Of a DNA stretch of 64,000 nucleotides, positions 31,140 through 58,488 are shown piece after piece (position 1 is the first letter of the stretch; each line of letters starts with the position of its first letter). Below the pieces are notes generated by a model that saw only the letters and a list, made by a program, of their open reading frames with translations, had not been told where the DNA came from and ran no database searches. Position numbers and translations under genes: made by a program. Origin of the DNA: Rhodobacter maris (GTDB lineage: Bacteria > Pseudomonadota > Alphaproteobacteria > Rhodobacterales > Rhodobacteraceae); contig NZ_OBMT01000001.1 of assembly GCF_900217815.1 (NCBI RefSeq), positions 248,001-312,000 of the forward strand. Direction: 5' to 3'.

Positions 31140-33170
31140 ATGATCACTTCCTCTGAAAATTCCCCCCTCCGGTCGCGCGAATGCGCGCCTTCCTGTGGCG
31201 CGGGAGCGGCGCCGTTCCTGCCGATGAGCCGCGCCGAGATGTCGGCGCTTGGCTGGGAAGATTGCGACATCATCCTTGTCACCGGCGATGCCTATGTCGA
31301 CCACCCGAGCTTCGGCATGGCGATCATCGGGCGTCTGCTCGAATCCCGGGGGTTCCGTGTCGGTATCATCTCGCAGCCCGACTGGCAGTCGGCCGAGCCG
31401 TTCCGGGCACTGGGCCGTCCGCGGCTCTTCTTTGGTGTCACTGGCGGCAATATGGATTCGATGGTCAACCGCTACACCTCGGACCGCAGGCTGCGCCATG
31501 ACGACGCCTATACGGCGGGCGGCGAAGGCGGCAAGCGGCCGGACCGCTGTACCATCGTCTATACCCAGCGCTGCCGCGAAGCCTACAAGGATGTGCCGGT
31601 GGTTCTGGGGGGCATCGAGGCCTCGTTGCGCCGCATCGCCCATTACGACTACTGGTCGGACAAGGTCCGCCGCTCGATCCTTGCCGATGCCAAGGCGGAT
31701 CTGCTGATCTATGGCAATGCCGAGCGGGCGGTCGTCGAGGTCGCAAATCGTCTGGCTGCCGGCGAGGCGCCGCGCGATCTGTGCGACATCCGGGGCATTG
31801 CCCTGTTCCGCCCCGTGCCCGAAACGGTCACCGAACTGCCCGCCGACGATCTTGATTCCGCAGACGAGGGCGCCAGCCGCACCTCTGGCGACACGGTGAT
31901 CCGGCTGCCCTCCTTCGAGCAGGTCGAGACCGATCGCGAGGCCTATGCGCGCGCCTCGCGGGTGCTGCACCGCGAGGCCAACCCGGGCAATGCCCGCCCG
32001 CTGGTGCAACGTCATGGCGACCGCGACCTCTGGCTCACGCCGCCACCGATCCCGCTGAGCACCGAGGAAATGGACGCGGTCTACGACCTGCCTTATGCCC
32101 GCGCACCGCACCCCTCCTATGGCGCGGCAAAGATTCCCGCCTGGGACATGATCAAGACCTCGGTCACGGTGATGCGCGGCTGTTTTGGCGGCTGCACCTT
32201 TTGCTCGATCACCGAACATGAGGGCCGTAAGATCCAGAGCCGCTCCGAGGCCTCGATCCTGCGCGAGATCGAACAGATCCGCGACAAGACGCCCGGCTTT
32301 GCGGGGGTGATTTCCGACATCGGCGGCCCTACCGCCAACATGTACCGGATGGCCTGCAAGGATCCGAAGATCGAGGCGGCCTGCCGGCTGCCCTCTTGCG
32401 TTTTTCCCGAGATCTGCCCCAACCTCGACACCTCGCATGACGACCTGATCCGGCTTTACCGCAAGGTGCGCGAGGTGAAGGGGGTGAAGAAAGTGATGGT
32501 TGCCTCGGGCGTGCGCTATGATCTCGCCGTGCGCAGCCCCGAATATATCCAGGAACTCGTCACGCATCACGTGGGCGGCTACCTCAAGATCGCGCCCGAA
32601 CATACCGAGCGGGGCCCCCTTGACGTGATGATGAAGCCCGGCATCGGCACCTATGACCGGTTCAAGGAAATGTTCGATGCGGCAGCCAAGCAGGCGGGCA
32701 AGAAATACTATCTGATCCCCTATTTCATCGCCGCCCATCCGGGCACGACCGACAAGGACATGCTCAACCTCGCGCTCTGGCTGAAAAAGAACCGCTACCG
32801 CGCCGATCAGGTGCAGACCTTCCTGCCTTCGCCGATGGCGACGGCGACGGCGATGTATCACACTGGCGTCAACCCGCTCAAAGGGGTGCGCCGCGGCGCC
32901 TCCGAGCCGGTGGGCACGGTGCGGGGTGGACGGCAGCGGCGGCTGCACAAGGCCTTTTTGCGCTACCATGACCCCGAGAACTGGCCGCTTCTGCGCGAGG
33001 CTCTGAAAGCGATGGGGCGCGCCGACCTGATCGGCCCGGGCGCTCACCAGCTGGTGCCCGCCCATCAGCCGCCCGGAACCGCAAAGGCGGCGCCCAAGCG
33101 CAGCTCCTCGCGCCCCGGCCCGGGGGGGAAGACTTTCACCACGAAGGGCGTGCCGTTTCCGAAGAAATGA
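31140..33170 (+). CDS. YgiQ-family radical SAM protein
   Basis: 676 residues. An N-terminal B12-binding-like domain ([25 protein letters not shown]) precedes the radical SAM domain with the iron-sulphur motif CFGGCTFC at about residue 347, then [13 protein letters not shown] and [15 protein letters not shown]. The C-terminus ([20 protein letters not shown], then a basic tail) is typical of YgiQ. The family's reaction is not established. Start taken at ATG 31140, after AAAAAGGG; a later ATG at codon 29 (MSRAEM) is close to the homologous N-terminus and could be the true start. Confidence 0.9.
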
Positions 33171-54379: not shown

Positions 54380-54543
54380 GGCAATCCTTGCACGGTTGAA
54401 GACAAAGAAGGGAAAGTGTCGCTCGCGCGCAGGGTGACGGCGAGCCGTAAACCAAGATTGAACGGGATAAGGATGTCATGAAAACTTCATCTTCCAGTTA
54501 CCTGGCGCGAAGTGCAGGATCACGCTTGCCTCGGGGGTGATCA

Positions 54544-54558
54544 GAACATAATGTGAAC
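54544..54558. promoter_or_regulatory. SOS box (GAAC-N7-GAAC) at the start of the radical SAM/DUF4130 cassette
   Basis: GAAC at 54544-54547 and GAAC at 54555-54558 are separated by exactly 7 bases. This is the complement of GTTC-N7-GTTC, the LexA site of alphaproteobacteria. It lies 2 bases before the ATG of the radical SAM gene, so LexA would cover the start of transcription. No Shine-Dalgarno sequence fits in the gap, which suggests a leaderless transcript. Confidence 0.7.
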
Positions 54559-54560
54559 AT

Positions 54561-55790
54561 ATGGCCCCGCGAACACTCTCCGAAAAGCTTGCTTTGCTCG
54601 CCGATGCGGCGAAATACGATGCGTCCTGCGCCTCGTCGGGGGGCGAGCGGCGGCAGTCGCGCGATGGCTCGGGGCTCGGCTCTTCCGGTGGCGCCGGGAT
54701 CTGCCACGCCTGGGCCCCCGATGGGCGCTGTATATCGCTTCTCAAGATCCTGCTGACGAACTTCTGCATTTACGACTGCGCCTATTGCATCAATCGCGCC
54801 TCAAGCGGGGTGGCCCGCGCGCGGTTCACGGTTGATGAGGTCGTCACGCTGACGGTCGAGTTTTACCGCCGCAACTATATCGAGGGGCTCTTTCTCTCCT
54901 CGGGCATCCTGCGTTCGCCTGACGAGACGATGGCCGAAATGGTGCGGGTGGCGCGCACCTTGCGCGAGCGCGAGCATTTCCGCGGCTATATCCATCTCAA
55001 GACCATCCCCGATGCCGCTCCCGAACTGATTGCCGCGGCGGGCAAATGGGCCGACCGGCTCTCGATCAATGTCGAGCTGCCGACCGAGACGGCGCTCACC
55101 CGGCTCGCGCCTGAAAAGTCGTTGCGAACGATCCATGGCGCGATGGCCGAGGTGAAGGCGCGCGGCGAGGCGGCGAAAGACTGCACCGCCCGCGGCACCC
55201 GTGCGCCGCGCTTTGCGCCTGCCGGGCAATCGACACAGATGATCATCGGCGCCGATCCCGCGACCGATGGCCAGATCCTGCGCCGTTCGGCCCGGCTTTA
55301 TGGCGATTTCGCGTTGCGCCGGGTCTATTATTCCGCTTTCTCGCCGATCCCCGATGCCGCCCGCACACTGCCGCTCATCCGCCCGCCGCTGATGCGCGAG
55401 CACAGGCTTTACCAGGCCGATTGGCTGATGCGGAATTACGGCTTTGCGGCCGACGAAATCACGCCCGAAACGGCGATGCTCGACCTCGAAATCGACCCGA
55501 AGCTGGCCTGGGCTTTGGCCCATCGCGCGCTCTTTCCGCTCGATCTGAACCGGGCGCCACGCGAATTGCTCTTGCGCGTGCCCGGGCTTGGCCCGCGCAG
55601 CGTGGCGCGGATTTTGGCCGCGCGTCGCTACCGGAGCCTGCGCTACGAGGATCTCAAGGCGATCGGTTGCGTGATCGGCAAGGCCGAACCGTTCATCAGC
55701 CTGCCGGGCTGGTCCCCCCGCGCCTTGCCCGATGCCGAGAACCTGCGGGCGCGCTTTGCGCCACCGCCGGAACAGTTGAGCCTGTTCTGA
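54561..55790 (+). CDS. Putative DNA modification/repair radical SAM protein with helix-hairpin-helix domain
   Basis: 409 residues. The 4Fe-4S motif CIYDCAYC lies at 69-76 in LLTNFCIYDCAYCINRASS, preceded by two further cysteines (ICHAWAPDGRC). The C-terminal third has a helix-hairpin-helix, PRELLLRVPGLGPRSVARILAARR (about 332-355), a DNA-binding element. This is the TIGR03916-type family that occurs paired with a DUF4130 protein, as here (overlap TGATG). Function is not experimentally known to me; the HhH and the partner suggest DNA lesion repair or base modification. A SOS box abuts the start codon. Confidence 0.88.
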   Translation: MAPRTLSEKLALLADAAKYDASCASSGGERRQSRDGSGLGSSGGAGICHAWAPDGRCISLLKILLTNFCIYDCAYCINRASSGVARARFTVDEVVTLTVEFYRRNYIEGLFLSSGILRSPDETMAEMVRVARTLREREHFRGYIHLKTIPDAAPELIAAAGKWADRLSINVELPTETALTRLAPEKSLRTIHGAMAEVKARGEAAKDCTARGTRAPRFAPAGQSTQMIIGADPATDGQILRRSARLYGDFALRRVYYSAFSPIPDAARTLPLIRPPLMREHRLYQADWLMRNYGFAADEITPETAMLDLEIDPKLAWALAHRALFPLDLNRAPRELLLRVPGLGPRSVARILAARRYRSLRYEDLKAIGCVIGKAEPFISLPGWSPRALPDAENLRARFAPPPEQLSLF

Positions 55791-56626
55791 TGCAGGTGGT
55801 TTTGCCTCGCATCGGCACTGTGGCCGCTTGGCGAGCAGAGGCACGTCGGCTGGCTGCCGCAGGCGTTTTGCCCGAGACGGTGCTCTGGTCGGTGGGCGAG
55901 GCCGCACCCGATCTCTTTGCAGCGAGCCCTGCCCCGCGCGCCGCCTCGGTCGCGTTCCGGCTGCCCCGGGTAGCGGTGGAGAGCATCGAGACCGCACTGA
56001 TGCATGCCGACCCGGAGCGTTTCGCACGCGCTTATGTGCTGGTTCTGCGACTGGCGCGGCAGGAGGCCATCTGGGGCGACCGATCCGACCCGGCCCTGCA
56101 CCGCCTTCTGGAACAGGAGAAGGCCGTCCGACGTGACATTCATCAGATGCATGGCTTTGTGCGGTTTCGCGAGGTGACCCCGCCGGGGGCGAACCGGCGC
56201 GCCTTCGCCGCGTGGTTCGAGCCCGCGCATCACATCCTTGAGGCCGCAGCCCCCTTCTTTGCGCGCCGCTTTGGCGACATGGATTGGCTGATCGCCACGC
56301 CCACGCTTACCGCGCGTTTCGAGGCGGGAGAACTCGAAATCCTTGAAACCGCAAACCGCGCCACACCGCCCGTGGATGCGACAGAGGATCTGTGGCGGGT
56401 CTATTTTGCCAATATTTTCAACCCGGCGCGGCTGATGGTGAACGCGATGACATCGCATATGCCGCGCAAGACATGGAAGAACCTGCCCGAAGCCGCGTTG
56501 ATCCCGGATCTCATCCGCACCGCCCCCGAGCGCGTGGCGGCGATGCGGGCCGCCGAAGCGGCCGCTCCGGGGCCAAAGCTGCAACGTCGCCTTCGGGCAA
56601 TTTCGGCGCAGCGGGAGGGCCGTTAG
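55790..56626 (+). CDS. DUF4130 (TIGR03915-type) probable DNA-metabolism protein
   Basis: 278 residues from an ATG that overlaps the radical SAM stop. Family blocks: RREIHQMHGFVRFRE-type segment (RRDIHQMHGFVRFREV), EPAHHILEAAAPFFARRFGDMDW, and the C-terminal YFANIFNPARLMVNAMTSHMPRKTWKNLPEA. In many bacteria this domain is fused to a uracil-DNA-glycosylase-family domain; here it stands alone. It is always next to the radical SAM partner, so the two probably act in one DNA process. Its end overlaps the convergent mntR gene by 4 bases. Confidence 0.85.
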   Translation: MQVVLPRIGTVAAWRAEARRLAAAGVLPETVLWSVGEAAPDLFAASPAPRAASVAFRLPRVAVESIETALMHADPERFARAYVLVLRLARQEAIWGDRSDPALHRLLEQEKAVRRDIHQMHGFVRFREVTPPGANRRAFAAWFEPAHHILEAAAPFFARRFGDMDWLIATPTLTARFEAGELEILETANRATPPVDATEDLWRVYFANIFNPARLMVNAMTSHMPRKTWKNLPEAALIPDLIRTAPERVAAMRAAEAAAPGPKLQRRLRAISAQREGR

Positions 56627-57060
56627 CGGCGCGCCAGAAACGCTTCGAACGCGCGCAGGGTCACGTCCGACACATGATGCTCGAGCCCCTCGGCGTCGAT
56701 CTCGGCTGTGTCCTGCGGCACGCCGACGGCGACCAAGAGATCGACCACGACCCGGTGGCGCATTCGCACGCGCGCGGCGAGCGCCGTGCCCGCCTCGGTC
56801 AGGAACACGCCGCGATAGGGTCGCGAAACGGCGAGCCCCTCGCGCTTGAGCCGCGCCACGGCTTTGGTTGCGGTCGGATGCGTCACCCCCATGCGCGCGG
56901 CAATATCGGTAATCCGCGCCTCACCCATCTCCTGCGCGAGGTCATCGATCATCTCGGCATAATCCTCCAGCACCGCCACGCTCTGCGCCGCGCGTGCCTG
57001 GCAGAACCGCTCCGCAGTCGGTCCGTCATTCGGCCCCTCGAGCGGGGTGTCCTCAGTCAT
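56623..57060 (-). CDS. mntR: Manganese-responsive transcriptional regulator MntR (DtxR family)
   Basis: 145 residues from ATG 57060 with GGAGG upstream. Winged-helix DNA-binding domain (ITDIAARMGVTHPTATKAVARLKREG) and the metal-binding dimerisation domain (ALAARVRMRHRVVVDLLVAVG, AEIDAEGLEHHVSD; ligands in ..MxHR, E..HH). Divergent from mntH, with a matching operator between. It represses Mn uptake when Mn is sufficient. Confidence 0.93.
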   Translation of the reverse strand: MTEDTPLEGPNDGPTAERFCQARAAQSVAVLEDYAEMIDDLAQEMGEARITDIAARMGVTHPTATKAVARLKREGLAVSRPYRGVFLTEAGTALAARVRMRHRVVVDLLVAVGVPQDTAEIDAEGLEHHVSDVTLRAFEAFLARR

Positions 57061-57144
57061 CTTGCGTCCTCCGGTGGCCTTTCTACAACTTTGCCGATGT
57101 TTTGCAAACTGTTCACAAAGATGCGTTTCGATGCCGTTTGACAG

Positions 57145-57192: not shown

Positions 57193-58488
57193 ATGAACGA
57201 CGATCGCACAATGAGCGGACGCACCCGCGCCACGATGGCGGCGGTGATCGGCGGCGAACGTCGGGGGCCGCTCGCCTTCCTGGCTTTCGTTGGTCCGGCG
57301 GTGATCGCCTCGGTCGCTTACATGGACCCGGGGAACTACGCGACGAACATCCAGGCGGGCGCGGGTTATGGCTACACGCTGCTCTGGGTCGTGCTTGTCG
57401 CCAACATGATCGCGATGCTGTTTCAGGCGCTTTCCGCCCGCCTCGGCATTGTCACCGGCCGCAACCTTGCCGAACTCAGCCGCGACCATCTGCCCTTCCC
57501 GGTCGTGCTGGCGATGTGGTTTGTCAGCGAGATCGCCGCGATGGCAACGGATCTGGCCGAATTTCTCGGCGGCGCGATCGGGCTTTCGCTGCTGCTTGGC
57601 ATTCCGCTCGTCTGGGGCATGGCGATCACCGCGGTGATCACCTATGCGATCCTGATGATGGAGCGTGGGGGCTTTCGGCCAATGGAGATCGTGATCGGTG
57701 CGCTCGTCGGGCTGATCGGGCTGTGCTACATGGCAGAGATCTTGATTGCCCCGATCGACTGGGAAGCTGCCGGGATCGGCCTTGTGAGCCCCGACCTCCC
57801 CGATGCACAGGCGCTCACGATTGCAGTGGGGATCATCGGGGCGACCGTGATGCCGCATGCGATTTTCCTCCATTCCGGCCTGACGCAAAACCGCGCCGTG
57901 CTCCATAACGACGAGGAACGCCGCCGGGTAGTGAAGATCTCCAACACCGAGGTCGTCGTGGCGCTCGCTGTGGCGGGCATGATCAATATGGCCATGGTGA
58001 TGATGGCCGCCTCTGCCTTCCACAACGGCCATGCCGAGGTGGCCGAGATCGAGACCGCCTATCACACGCTCACCCCCCTTCTGGGCGCGGCTGCCGCGGG
58101 GGCCTTCCTTGTCTCGCTGATCGCCTCGGGGATCTCGTCTTCAGTCGTTGGCACGATGGCGGGGCAGTTGATCATGCAGGGGTTCCTGCGCTTCACCATC
58201 CCGCTCTGGATACGCCGCGCGGTGACGATGGTGCCCGCCTTCGCGGTGGTGCTCGCAGGCGTCAATGCCACGCAGGCGCTGGTGATGAGCCAGGTGGTGC
58301 TGTCCATCGCGCTGCCGGTGCCGATGCTGGCACTTCTGTGGCTCATTCGCAAACCCGAGGTGATGGGCAGTTTCGTGCCCCGACAGGCGACGCTTGCGGT
58401 GGCCGGGATCGGCGCGGCGCTGGTGCTCAGCCTCAATTTCGTGCTGCTGGCGAGCGCTTTTGGCTTTGCGCTCCCTTTCCTCGGCTGA
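57193..58488 (+). CDS. mntH: Nramp-family manganese/divalent metal transporter
   Basis: 431 residues, about 11 membrane helices. The two metal-site segments are present: MDPGN in helix 1 and MPHAIFLHS in helix 6. AAGGGAA upstream. It imports Mn2+ (and other divalent metals) with protons. Controlled by the divergent mntR through the box in the promoter. Confidence 0.96.
   Translation: MNDDRTMSGRTRATMAAVIGGERRGPLAFLAFVGPAVIASVAYMDPGNYATNIQAGAGYGYTLLWVVLVANMIAMLFQALSARLGIVTGRNLAELSRDHLPFPVVLAMWFVSEIAAMATDLAEFLGGAIGLSLLLGIPLVWGMAITAVITYAILMMERGGFRPMEIVIGALVGLIGLCYMAEILIAPIDWEAAGIGLVSPDLPDAQALTIAVGIIGATVMPHAIFLHSGLTQNRAVLHNDEERRRVVKISNTEVVVALAVAGMINMAMVMMAASAFHNGHAEVAEIETAYHTLTPLLGAAAAGAFLVSLIASGISSSVVGTMAGQLIMQGFLRFTIPLWIRRAVTMVPAFAVVLAGVNATQALVMSQVVLSIALPVPMLALLWLIRKPEVMGSFVPRQATLAVAGIGAALVLSLNFVLLASAFGFALPFLG

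Follow-up and report, generated by a model that had tools for sequence, protein, structure and literature searches.

The analysed stretch of Rhodobacter maris DNA, 64,000 nucleotides in length and hereafter called the window, contains a radical SAM gene and a DUF4130 gene arranged as a two-gene cassette behind a LexA-type box. Such an arrangement raises the question of what this pair does when DNA is damaged, and which of its features point to the place and the partners of its action.

A catalogued gene pair

A preliminary description of this locus reported a radical SAM protein, bearing the motif CIYDCAYC, whose gene overlaps one for a DUF4130 protein. This observation is borne out by the open reading frames and their family matches (Table 1). 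The two frames encode 409 and 278 amino acids, respectively, and share a single base (TGATG). The radical SAM protein matches TIGR03916 (rSAM_link_UDG) with 571.1 bits over residues 6-386, where the curated cut-off is 343.5, and this is its sole NCBIfam match. Its partner matches both TIGR03915 (SAM_7_link_chp; 181 bits, curated cut-off 112.25) and PF13566 (DUF4130; 124.1 bits, cut-off 27). With both proteins well above the curated cut-offs and the gene order the same as in other copies, the window cassette is a member of the TIGR03916-TIGR03915 pair and shows no difference in kind. DUF4130 follows the radical SAM gene in the same orientation in 79 of 80 named loci, which are the best 80 profile matches and are skewed to close relatives, all being alphaproteobacterial or unclassed by title except for one from Xanthomonas.

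The pair is already catalogued as a family, albeit without an assigned reaction. The names found in the records, "putative DNA modification/repair radical SAM protein" and "TIGR03915 family putative DNA repair protein", state none, in keeping with the preliminary description, which had nonetheless missed that the pair is catalogued. In the relevant portion of PMC8307549, a table of reconstructed and minimal genomes contains a 'putative DNA modification/repair FeS-containing radical SAM protein' with its pathway given as unknown; we read this entry as the TIGR03916 family, placed in the LUCA set. The family is widespread in the phylum, with a TIGR03916 match in 66 of 299 sampled genomes, 53 of them above the cut-off. 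Within the genus, 10 of 18 genomes have no match and one more has the gene in two pieces; thus, the function of the cassette is dispensable.

Table 1. Features of the cassette, in coordinates of the window
Feature	Position	Strand	Basis or remark
-35-like element TTGCCT	54526..54531	+	strongest upstream signal in aligned loci; same place in window
LexA-type box GAACATAATGTGAAC	54544..54558	+	sequence; conserved at gene start in relatives
-10-like element TAATGT, inside the box, 17 bases from -35	54549..54554	+	majority pattern in aligned loci
Predicted transcription start, A of ATG	54561..54561	+	inference from promoter geometry
Radical SAM protein, TIGR03916 (rSAM_link_UDG)	54561..55790	+	ORF, profile match
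Codons of extra conserved cysteines C23, C48, C57	54627..54731	+	candidate auxiliary Fe-S cluster ligands
Radical SAM CX3CX2C motif CIYDCAYC, residues 69-76	54765..54788	+	translation
Helix-hairpin-helix region, residues 325-371	55533..55673	+	weak profile matches
Sliding-clamp-binding-type pentapeptide QLSLF, residues 405-409	55773..55787	+	conserved in loci; published consensus
DUF4130 protein, TIGR03915, lacking the UdgX domain that most relatives have	55790..56626	+	ORF, profile matches

The LexA-type box and the promoter

The perfect LexA-type site noted in the preliminary description is present at 54544-54558, and GAACATAATGTGAAC ends two bases before the ATG at 54561. The bare motif is not significant alone, because its counts are near chance both in the window (2 against 1.39 expected, a number reached by 38 of 100 shuffles) and in the genome (86 against 73 for the reversed control), and it was rejected as evidence in that form. 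Its placement in relatives is far more telling. When other copies were searched, as had been proposed, 25 of the 26 family cassettes above the cut-off, the window copy counted, proved to have a perfect box near the gene start, between -120 and +20 relative to where the profile match begins, while mononucleotide shuffles of the family loci gave a mean of 0.115 loci with a box and a highest value of 2. All seven intact cassettes from the 18 genus genomes, again with the window copy counted, carry the box exactly 2 bases before the ATG. Among the best 80 named loci, 72 have a perfect box at the gene start and eight have none, versus 10 of 327 background ORFs chosen as non-overlapping and with coding-like GC periodicity. 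Additionally, the same box type precedes lexA (two boxes) and recA of the window genome, as well as its UvrD/PcrA-like, ImuB-like and PA0069-family radical SAM genes. The GTTC/GAAC-N7 direct repeat is conserved at the promoter in orthologues, as in members of a LexA regulon, and the cassette is probably an SOS-response operon, repressed by LexA and induced by DNA damage. Comparison of loci thus lends good support to the LexA control proposed earlier.

Across the phylum, 5 of 27 loci lack the alphaproteobacterial-type box, and 3 of these 5 also lack CTGT-N8-ACAG, which we take to be another LexA motif. Two copies outside the class of the window (L094 and L097) have this motif in place of the direct repeat, so LexA control seems to outlast a change of LexA motif. 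The TIGR03916-type radical SAM family is presumably that listed as COG4277. An SOS-regulated COG1573-COG4277 operon is described for Bacteroidetes in a section of PMC8565304, which reports it also for Verrucomicrobia and, via a Caulobacter paper, for Alphaproteobacteria, and which cites Paes da Rocha 2008 and Erill 2016 for SOS control. The prediction of SOS control in the preliminary description is supported, but this printed precedent had escaped it. LexA control is reported for that operon and predicted for the window cassette; the operon is presented in the same section as a UDG-based base excision system, whereas the window cassette has no UDG.

The box covers the -10 element of the predicted promoter. 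In 65 aligned named loci of the best-80 set, positions -18, -17 and -16, counted from the start of the box, are T, T and G in 40, 33 and 40 loci, respectively, and the whole TTG is present in 23. The majority pattern at +5 to +10 of the box in the same loci is TAT..T (T 57, A 56, T 37, and T 39 at +10). By this aligned geometry transcription would begin at the A of the ATG, and the cassette mRNA is therefore probably leaderless, a suggestion of the preliminary description that is well supported by the comparison. The leaderless gap is not universal, as the distance from box end to start is 0-7 bases in 52 of the 65 loci and 13-28 bases in 13.

The radical SAM protein and its C-terminal tail

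The three cysteines of the CX3CX2C motif are invariant in 67 of 67 sequences. Three extra cysteines precede it: C23, C48 and C57 are all invariant in 17 of 17 sequences, and in the larger set C48 and C57 occur in 67 of 67 and C23 in at least 90%. All three are also present in the Acinetobacter and Spirosoma copies. Extra N-terminal cysteines of this sort resemble those of auxiliary-cluster radical SAM enzymes in general plan. The stretch containing them is mostly modelled with low confidence, with segments 25-47 and 49-58 below pLDDT 50. The C-terminal part of the protein contains VPGLGPRSVARIL, and the helix-hairpin-helix region is suggested by faint profile similarity to a ComEA-related chain (residues 325-371, E 0.007) and to RuvA (residues 293-356, E 0.02-0.04).

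The protein ends in QLSLF, which conforms to the bacterial sliding-clamp-binding consensus QL(S/D)LF as given in the part of PMC9690074 consulted. A strict form of this tail is conserved in 113 of 139 loci, a loose form in 138 and the exact QL(S/D)LF in 45, the window gene being entered once and the 139 tails sharing ancestry; among 349 background ORFs the strict form is found in none. Residues 405-409 are below pLDDT 50 in the model, and a tail motif this short may mislead. A conserved C-terminal motif of this type is expected of sliding-clamp clients, and it is probably by this tail that the radical SAM protein attaches to the replication sliding clamp. To our knowledge no other radical SAM enzyme is clamp-tethered, and this one would be the first if the tail works. 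A non-exhaustive literature search for radical SAM enzymes with sliding-clamp terms met none among the papers listed, which does not establish absence from print. The clamp-type tail, the near-invariant cysteines and the lack of UdgX, the uracil-DNA cross-linking glycosylase, are additions to the preliminary description, which missed both the tail and the UdgX usual in relatives.

Proposed role

On balance, we favour a reading in which the cassette encodes a radical SAM enzyme that is induced in the SOS response, tethered to the sliding clamp and active on damaged DNA at replication forks; DUF4130 would be its core partner and UdgX an optional one. A dnaE2-type gene near 11 of the best 80 named loci also speaks for this reading, and the scarcity of repair-gene neighbours, seen at 12 of the 80, against it. 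LexA would repress the cassette by occupying the -10 element of its leaderless promoter, and DNA damage would lift this repression, as the conserved sites suggest. The QLSLF tail would then bring the radical SAM protein to the clamp, its helix-hairpin-helix region would bind DNA, and together with DUF4130 it may use 5'-deoxyadenosyl-radical chemistry on nucleotides that are damaged or wrongly made, in stalled or just-replicated DNA, perhaps aided by a second Fe-S cluster bound to C23, C48 and C57. In most sampled relatives UdgX would contribute uracil excision and covalent capping of the abasic site, an option absent from the genus copies. We infer for the pair a role in repair or base modification. 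More tentative is the fuller proposal of a clamp-riding, SOS-induced radical enzyme, possibly with a second Fe-S cluster, that repairs or edits a lesion at the fork by chemistry so far assigned to no repair pathway; DUF4130 would be its dedicated partner, and the covalent UdgX would be optional. Two features make the family tractable, its clamp-type tail and a natural variant lacking UdgX: they hint at the enzyme's site of action and at the two proteins that would be enough.

Alternative roles

The enzyme could instead serve mutagenesis, either by altering bases or by aiding the ImuAB-DnaE2 mutasome. Base alteration, of thymine, is suggested for DUF4130-linked enzymes in a section of PMC3765255, and the clamp-type tail would suit such a role, as would the presence, within the fetched flanks, of a dnaE2-type gene at 11 of the best 80 named loci, or at 12 when imuB- and imuA-type genes are included. 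Such repair neighbours are the exception, however, with 68 of the 80 loci showing none in fetched flanks, some of which end at contig ends, and many genomes have no cassette at all; a role in mutagenesis rather than repair is accordingly unlikely.

It is less likely again that the protein is an SplB-like enzyme, directly reversing UV thymine dimers. It shares with SplB the radical SAM motif and its chemistry, a DNA-damage context and probable SOS control; DUF4130-linked enzymes are called SplB-like in the section of PMC3765255 noted above, and PMC3323433 reports splB as a member of alpha/beta LexA regulons. Identity with SplB was nonetheless rejected: TIGR03916 is the only NCBIfam match, and spore photoproduct lyase is absent from the 20 PDB sequence matches (E up to 1) and from the 50 fold matches listed out of 1151. 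Moreover, it is the window protein that has a helix-hairpin-helix region, extra cysteines, a DUF4130 partner and a clamp-type tail. A better fit as the splB-type regulon member is the PA0069-family radical SAM gene of the window genome (445.7 bits over 360), which shares with the window gene a perfect direct-repeat box, here 12 bases before the start, but belongs to another NCBIfam family, one that we presume is linked to COG1533. No clamp-type tail occurs in the stretch of this protein that was read, the fetched region cutting it.

An RNA or other non-DNA target, with induction by damage for some secondary reason, is improbable. Fold neighbours of the radical SAM core do include MiaB, LipA, BioB and viperin (among the 50 listed of 1151 matches), and the three extra N-terminal cysteines recall auxiliary-cluster enzymes. 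DNA is nevertheless preferred as the target because of the clamp-type tail, the weak helix-hairpin-helix match, the fusion to UdgX in relatives and the probable LexA control.

DUF4130 and UdgX

Most relatives fuse DUF4130 to UdgX, and the UdgX half is seen in them with its loop. The window cassette shares the radical SAM gene and the DUF4130 half with these longer cassettes (named "UdgX family uracil-DNA binding protein"), and the box starts most of their copies, as it does in the window, but the window copy ends after DUF4130. The UdgX motifs given in a section of PMC10359453, namely GEQPG, a KRRIH-type loop and HPS, are absent from the window DUF4130 protein, and a search downstream found no remnant. 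The best TIGR03914 (UDG_fam_dom) match in the window genome reaches 125 bits, under the cut-off of 189.95, and has GEAPG and no KRRIH-type loop. UdgX is likewise absent from seven intact genus copies, the window copy counted.

Given that 120 of 134 classifiable loci have a UDG either after DUF4130 or fused to it, and that the genome distributions of the pair and the UDG agree closely within the family, the pair might be thought to resolve or regulate the covalent UdgX-DNA adduct. Yet without UdgX the pair keeps a low dN/dS in the genus, at 0.10-0.12 for the radical SAM gene and 0.15-0.25 for DUF4130 in pairs with the window copy, and the UdgX-less label requires 7 changes on a quick tree, at least 5 of them on well-supported branches. 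On these two grounds a pair serving UdgX alone was rejected, and with no TIGR03914 match above the cut-off in the window genome a role at the adduct is very improbable. The best reading of these comparisons is that DUF4130 would be the core partner and UdgX optional. Hardly credible is a decaying remnant left after UdgX loss: the UdgX domain is gone, and in two of the relatives sampled (G147 and G157) the radical SAM gene is split in two, but both window genes are open and retain the conserved cysteines and the box, and decay is rejected by a dN/dS well below 1.

As to DUF4130 itself, a PDB sequence search returned 0 matches, and fold searches pointed only faintly to DHH phosphoesterases (best E 0.0044, TM 0.29), a likeness that serves as a lead. 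Against viral folds there were some DHH-type matches, none at E 0.001 or better. DUF4130 had no match in phage records, and a radical SAM relative is present on two viral contigs, on one of them in part only.

Identity and layout of the gene pair

Both genes of the cassette match curated families above cut-off. They overlap, as the preliminary description had read them, and do so by a single base. Because of these matches, and because relatives on plasmid records are already annotated as "putative DNA modification/repair radical SAM protein" and "UdgX family uracil-DNA binding protein", the pair belongs to a known, uncharacterised kind. In a figure legend DUF4130 is predicted to be a mutagenesis-related enzyme, together with SplB-like radical SAM proteins and UDGs (PMC3765255), one passage places COG1573-COG4277 under SOS regulation (PMC8565304), and a table lists an unknown-pathway "putative DNA modification/repair FeS-containing radical SAM protein" (PMC8307549). 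The UDGX paper (PMC10776899) makes no mention of DUF4130, operon, fused, SOS, LexA or genomic context, and the literature search found no paper joining "UdgX" and "radical SAM"; co-mention of "radical SAM" and "DUF4130" was rare, as was any mention of "COG4277". Already known, then, are the kind of system and, in print, SOS control of that kind. Added here are a clamp-type tail, a UdgX-less core and a cysteine trio, which together provide a concrete, testable model.

Features of the cassette and its downstream neighbours in the window
Feature	Position	Strand	Remarks
-35-like TTG	54526	+	fits 65-locus alignment
LexA-type box GAACATAATGTGAAC	54544-54558	+	ends 2 bases 5' of ATG at 54561
-10-like TAATGT	54549-54554	+	inside box; fits 65-locus alignment
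Radical SAM gene	54561-55790	+	409 aa; TIGR03916 rSAM_link_UDG, 571 bits, above curated cut-off
DUF4130 gene	55790-56626	+	278 aa; TIGR03915, 181 bits, above curated cut-off
MntR-like regulator gene	56623-57141	-	converges on DUF4130 gene end, four-base overlap; name from sequence
NRAMP/MntH-like transporter gene	57193-58488	+	adjoins MntR-like gene; name from sequence

Probable SOS control and the predicted promoter

The bare box motif occurs twice in the window versus 1.39 expected, and 86 times genome-wide versus 73 for a reversed control pattern; as a lone motif GAACATAATGTGAAC proves nothing, and position and conservation decide. Among 149 family genomes, 26 cassettes (own copy counted) scored above cut-off, and in 25 of these a perfect box stands where the gene begins; the remaining one, L057, has a box with a single mismatch, farther upstream. 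Shuffled upstream DNA gave a mean of 0.115 loci with a box. In the genus, all seven intact cassettes place it exactly 2 bases before ATG. A perfect box lies within 150 bases in 22 of 27 further phylum loci; CTGT-N8-ACAG, the LexA motif found in gammaproteobacteria and some other groups, takes its place in two from outside the window's class (L094, L097), and three (L071, L090, L092) have neither. The 80 named loci include 68 whose perfect box lies no more than 100 bases upstream and four (L100, L103, L143, L159) with one only inside the script-chosen start, 72 in total; eight have none. The background in the same loci, 21 of 628 open frames with 250 codons or more (many spurious) or 10 of 327 non-overlapping coding-like ORFs, gives only an approximate contrast, because cassette starts followed a rule, background starts were the first Met, and the background had no leeway inside the start. 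SOS control of the pair is well supported by this sequence comparison, and the perfect box claimed 2 bases before the start codon is both confirmed in the window and present in other copies. A passage on Caulobacter gives the LexA motif as GTTCN7GTTC (PMC12700426), and one on Dinoroseobacter gives both GTTC and GAAC forms (PMC6473078).

Alignment of the 65 named loci with GAAC-N7-GAAC no more than 45 bases from the start places the strongest upstream signal in T, T and G at -18 to -16 from the box (40, 33 and 40 loci; the whole TTG in 23), and box positions +5 to +10 read TAT..T. These elements form a predicted sigma-70-type pair with a 17-base spacer. In 52 of the 65 the box-to-start gap is 0-7 bases, with 31 of them at exactly 2; in the other 13 it is 13-28 bases. 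Because of this geometry, transcription in the common layout would begin at about the A of ATG, which lends good comparative support to the leaderless mRNA proposed earlier, as an inference, for the common layout and for the window's own sequence; it does not hold for copies with longer gaps. Six loci (L082, L083, L085, L086 and the Bradyrhizobium loci L169 and L174) have GTTCATGATATGTTC in common, 81-84 bases ahead of the start, which is not the leaderless layout.

A core without UdgX

Of the 26 family cassettes, 25 encode a second protein of 464-485 aa that joins DUF4130 to a UDG domain, nine of the 25 running past the end of the fetched stretch; the sole exception is the window's own. In nine of the fused proteins the loop is K[RT]R[IL]H or nearly so (RRRIH in L039), and R-[ILM]-H stands at the same place in all 69 of the 80 named loci where the loop is readable. 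The histidine of the UdgX loop makes the cross-link. One abstract defines UdgX by KRRIH, GEQPG and an HPS motif (PMC10359453).

Of the 149 family genomes, 26 have a UDG domain above the TIGR03914 cut-off, 25 of them with an intact radical SAM gene; in the 26th, the incomplete assembly G147, the radical SAM gene is split in two. The window's genome is the one reverse case in this sample, radical SAM without UDG. The six other intact genus copies also lack UdgX, as do two from other genera of the family (L074, L075). Across 139 loci, 120 have UDG and 16 do not; with L089 and L092 (no DUF4130 in the fetched stretch) and three loci too short to judge left out, UdgX-less copies number 14 of 134. 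A quick FastTree tree includes the window's gene twice and has long branches that leave some placements unsure; on it the UdgX-less label needs seven changes, at least five on well-supported branches; these may be gains or losses of UdgX. No UdgX remnant was found by tblastn downstream of DUF4130 (best in window, E 0.004 at 32940-33071). Window-to-genus pairs have a dN/dS of 0.10-0.12 in the radical SAM gene and of 0.15-0.25 in DUF4130, values that are rough since synonymous differences are near 0.5 per site. Given the UdgX-less copies and these low ratios, the pair seems to work without UdgX.

Clamp-type tail, cysteine trio and predicted structures

The radical SAM protein of the window ends in EQLSLF. 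Graded by match to the clamp-binding motif, tails across the 139 loci are strict (Q[LM]xL[FL], last 16 residues) in 113, loose in 138 and exactly QL(S/D)LF in 45; among background sequences, strict and loose matches number 0 and 14 in 649 open frames, and 0 and 6 in 349 coding-like ORFs. The strict motif is found in none of the 26 second proteins of the family cassettes. Non-strict tails include QLSLAL, QMALAL and QLGFGF, which resemble the hexapeptide form of the motif. The tail glutamine is invariant in all 67 aligned radical SAM proteins. Distant copies end in QLSLF (Spirosoma) and QLSLGF (Acinetobacter), and a Gemmatirosa relative has QLSLW some 20 residues before its end. According to a passage in a review, bacterial clamp-binding proteins have the C-terminal pentapeptide QL(S/D)LF, and more variation may be accepted (PMC9690074).

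In addition to the radical SAM cysteines, C23, C48 and C57 are conserved, also in the Acinetobacter and Spirosoma copies, whose DUF4130-type partner has 255-265 aa. The Gemmatirosa relative, a single case, is without the trio, and its next open frame looks like a sensor kinase rather than DUF4130. The radical SAM model has a mean pLDDT of 82.9, with the N-terminal cysteine stretch as its unsure part and tail residues 405-409 below 50; the solved folds closest to it are HydE, viperin, PFL-activating enzyme, HydG, biotin/lipoyl synthases and MiaB (TM 0.32-0.44 by query length). The DUF4130 model (pLDDT 91.1) has no convincing match among solved folds. A weak but repeated resemblance to DHH-family phosphoesterases appeared in two structure libraries.

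Other LexA-type boxes and neighbouring genes

Elsewhere in the same genome, boxes precede lexA (two, 32 and 43 bases before the start), recA (58 bases), a UvrD/PcrA-like gene (42 bases; the protein is a fragment at the end of the fetched stretch) and an ImuB-like gene (14 bases), named from reading, whose product matches DNA polymerase IV models weakly, below the curated cut-off. A PA0069-family radical SAM gene (L193, contig C35 near 13737) has a perfect GTTC-N7-GTTC 12 bases before its start; of the UvrD-like, ImuB-like and PA0069-family proteins scanned, only the last exceeds its curated cut-off, and the gene is probably a separate SOS member. This list is not a full regulon, because surroundings were covered for 48 of the 86 genome sites (30, plus 18 in 15 further regions chosen by eye for spacers); other box-adjacent ORFs among the 48 are probably chance. 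Part of one source places splB in alpha/beta LexA regulons (PMC3323433).

At 79 of the 80 named loci, DUF4130 lies 3' of the radical SAM gene in the same orientation; the remaining one, L160, is close to a contig end. Clustering of flanking ORFs by blastp, within the fetched flanks, yielded DnaE2-type genes at 11 loci, ImuB-like at 10 and ImuA-like at 7, together 12 loci. One representative of each was scanned, and all fell below cut-off: the DnaE2-type (a 420-residue piece) best matched an error-prone DNA polymerase model, the ImuB-like matched DNA polymerase IV weakly, and the ImuA-like matched the ImuA model. The dnaE2-type loci are L126, L133, L140, L148, L158, L159, L165, L167, L169, L171 and L174, mostly with imuA/imuB-like genes.

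At L153, L157, L162 and L172, titled Sphingomonas, Stakelama and an unclassed MAG, a hemerythrin-like gene of 158-163 aa (name from reading) stands between the two genes; the L153 protein has a weak NCBIfam persister-protein match, below cut-off. The convergent MntR-like gene recurs in L067 and L068; the shorter stretches of L063-L066 did not show it. Relatives of the radical SAM gene occur on 158 plasmid records, led by Phaeobacter (58) and Paracoccus (15); of the 158, 142 are predicted non-mobilizable.
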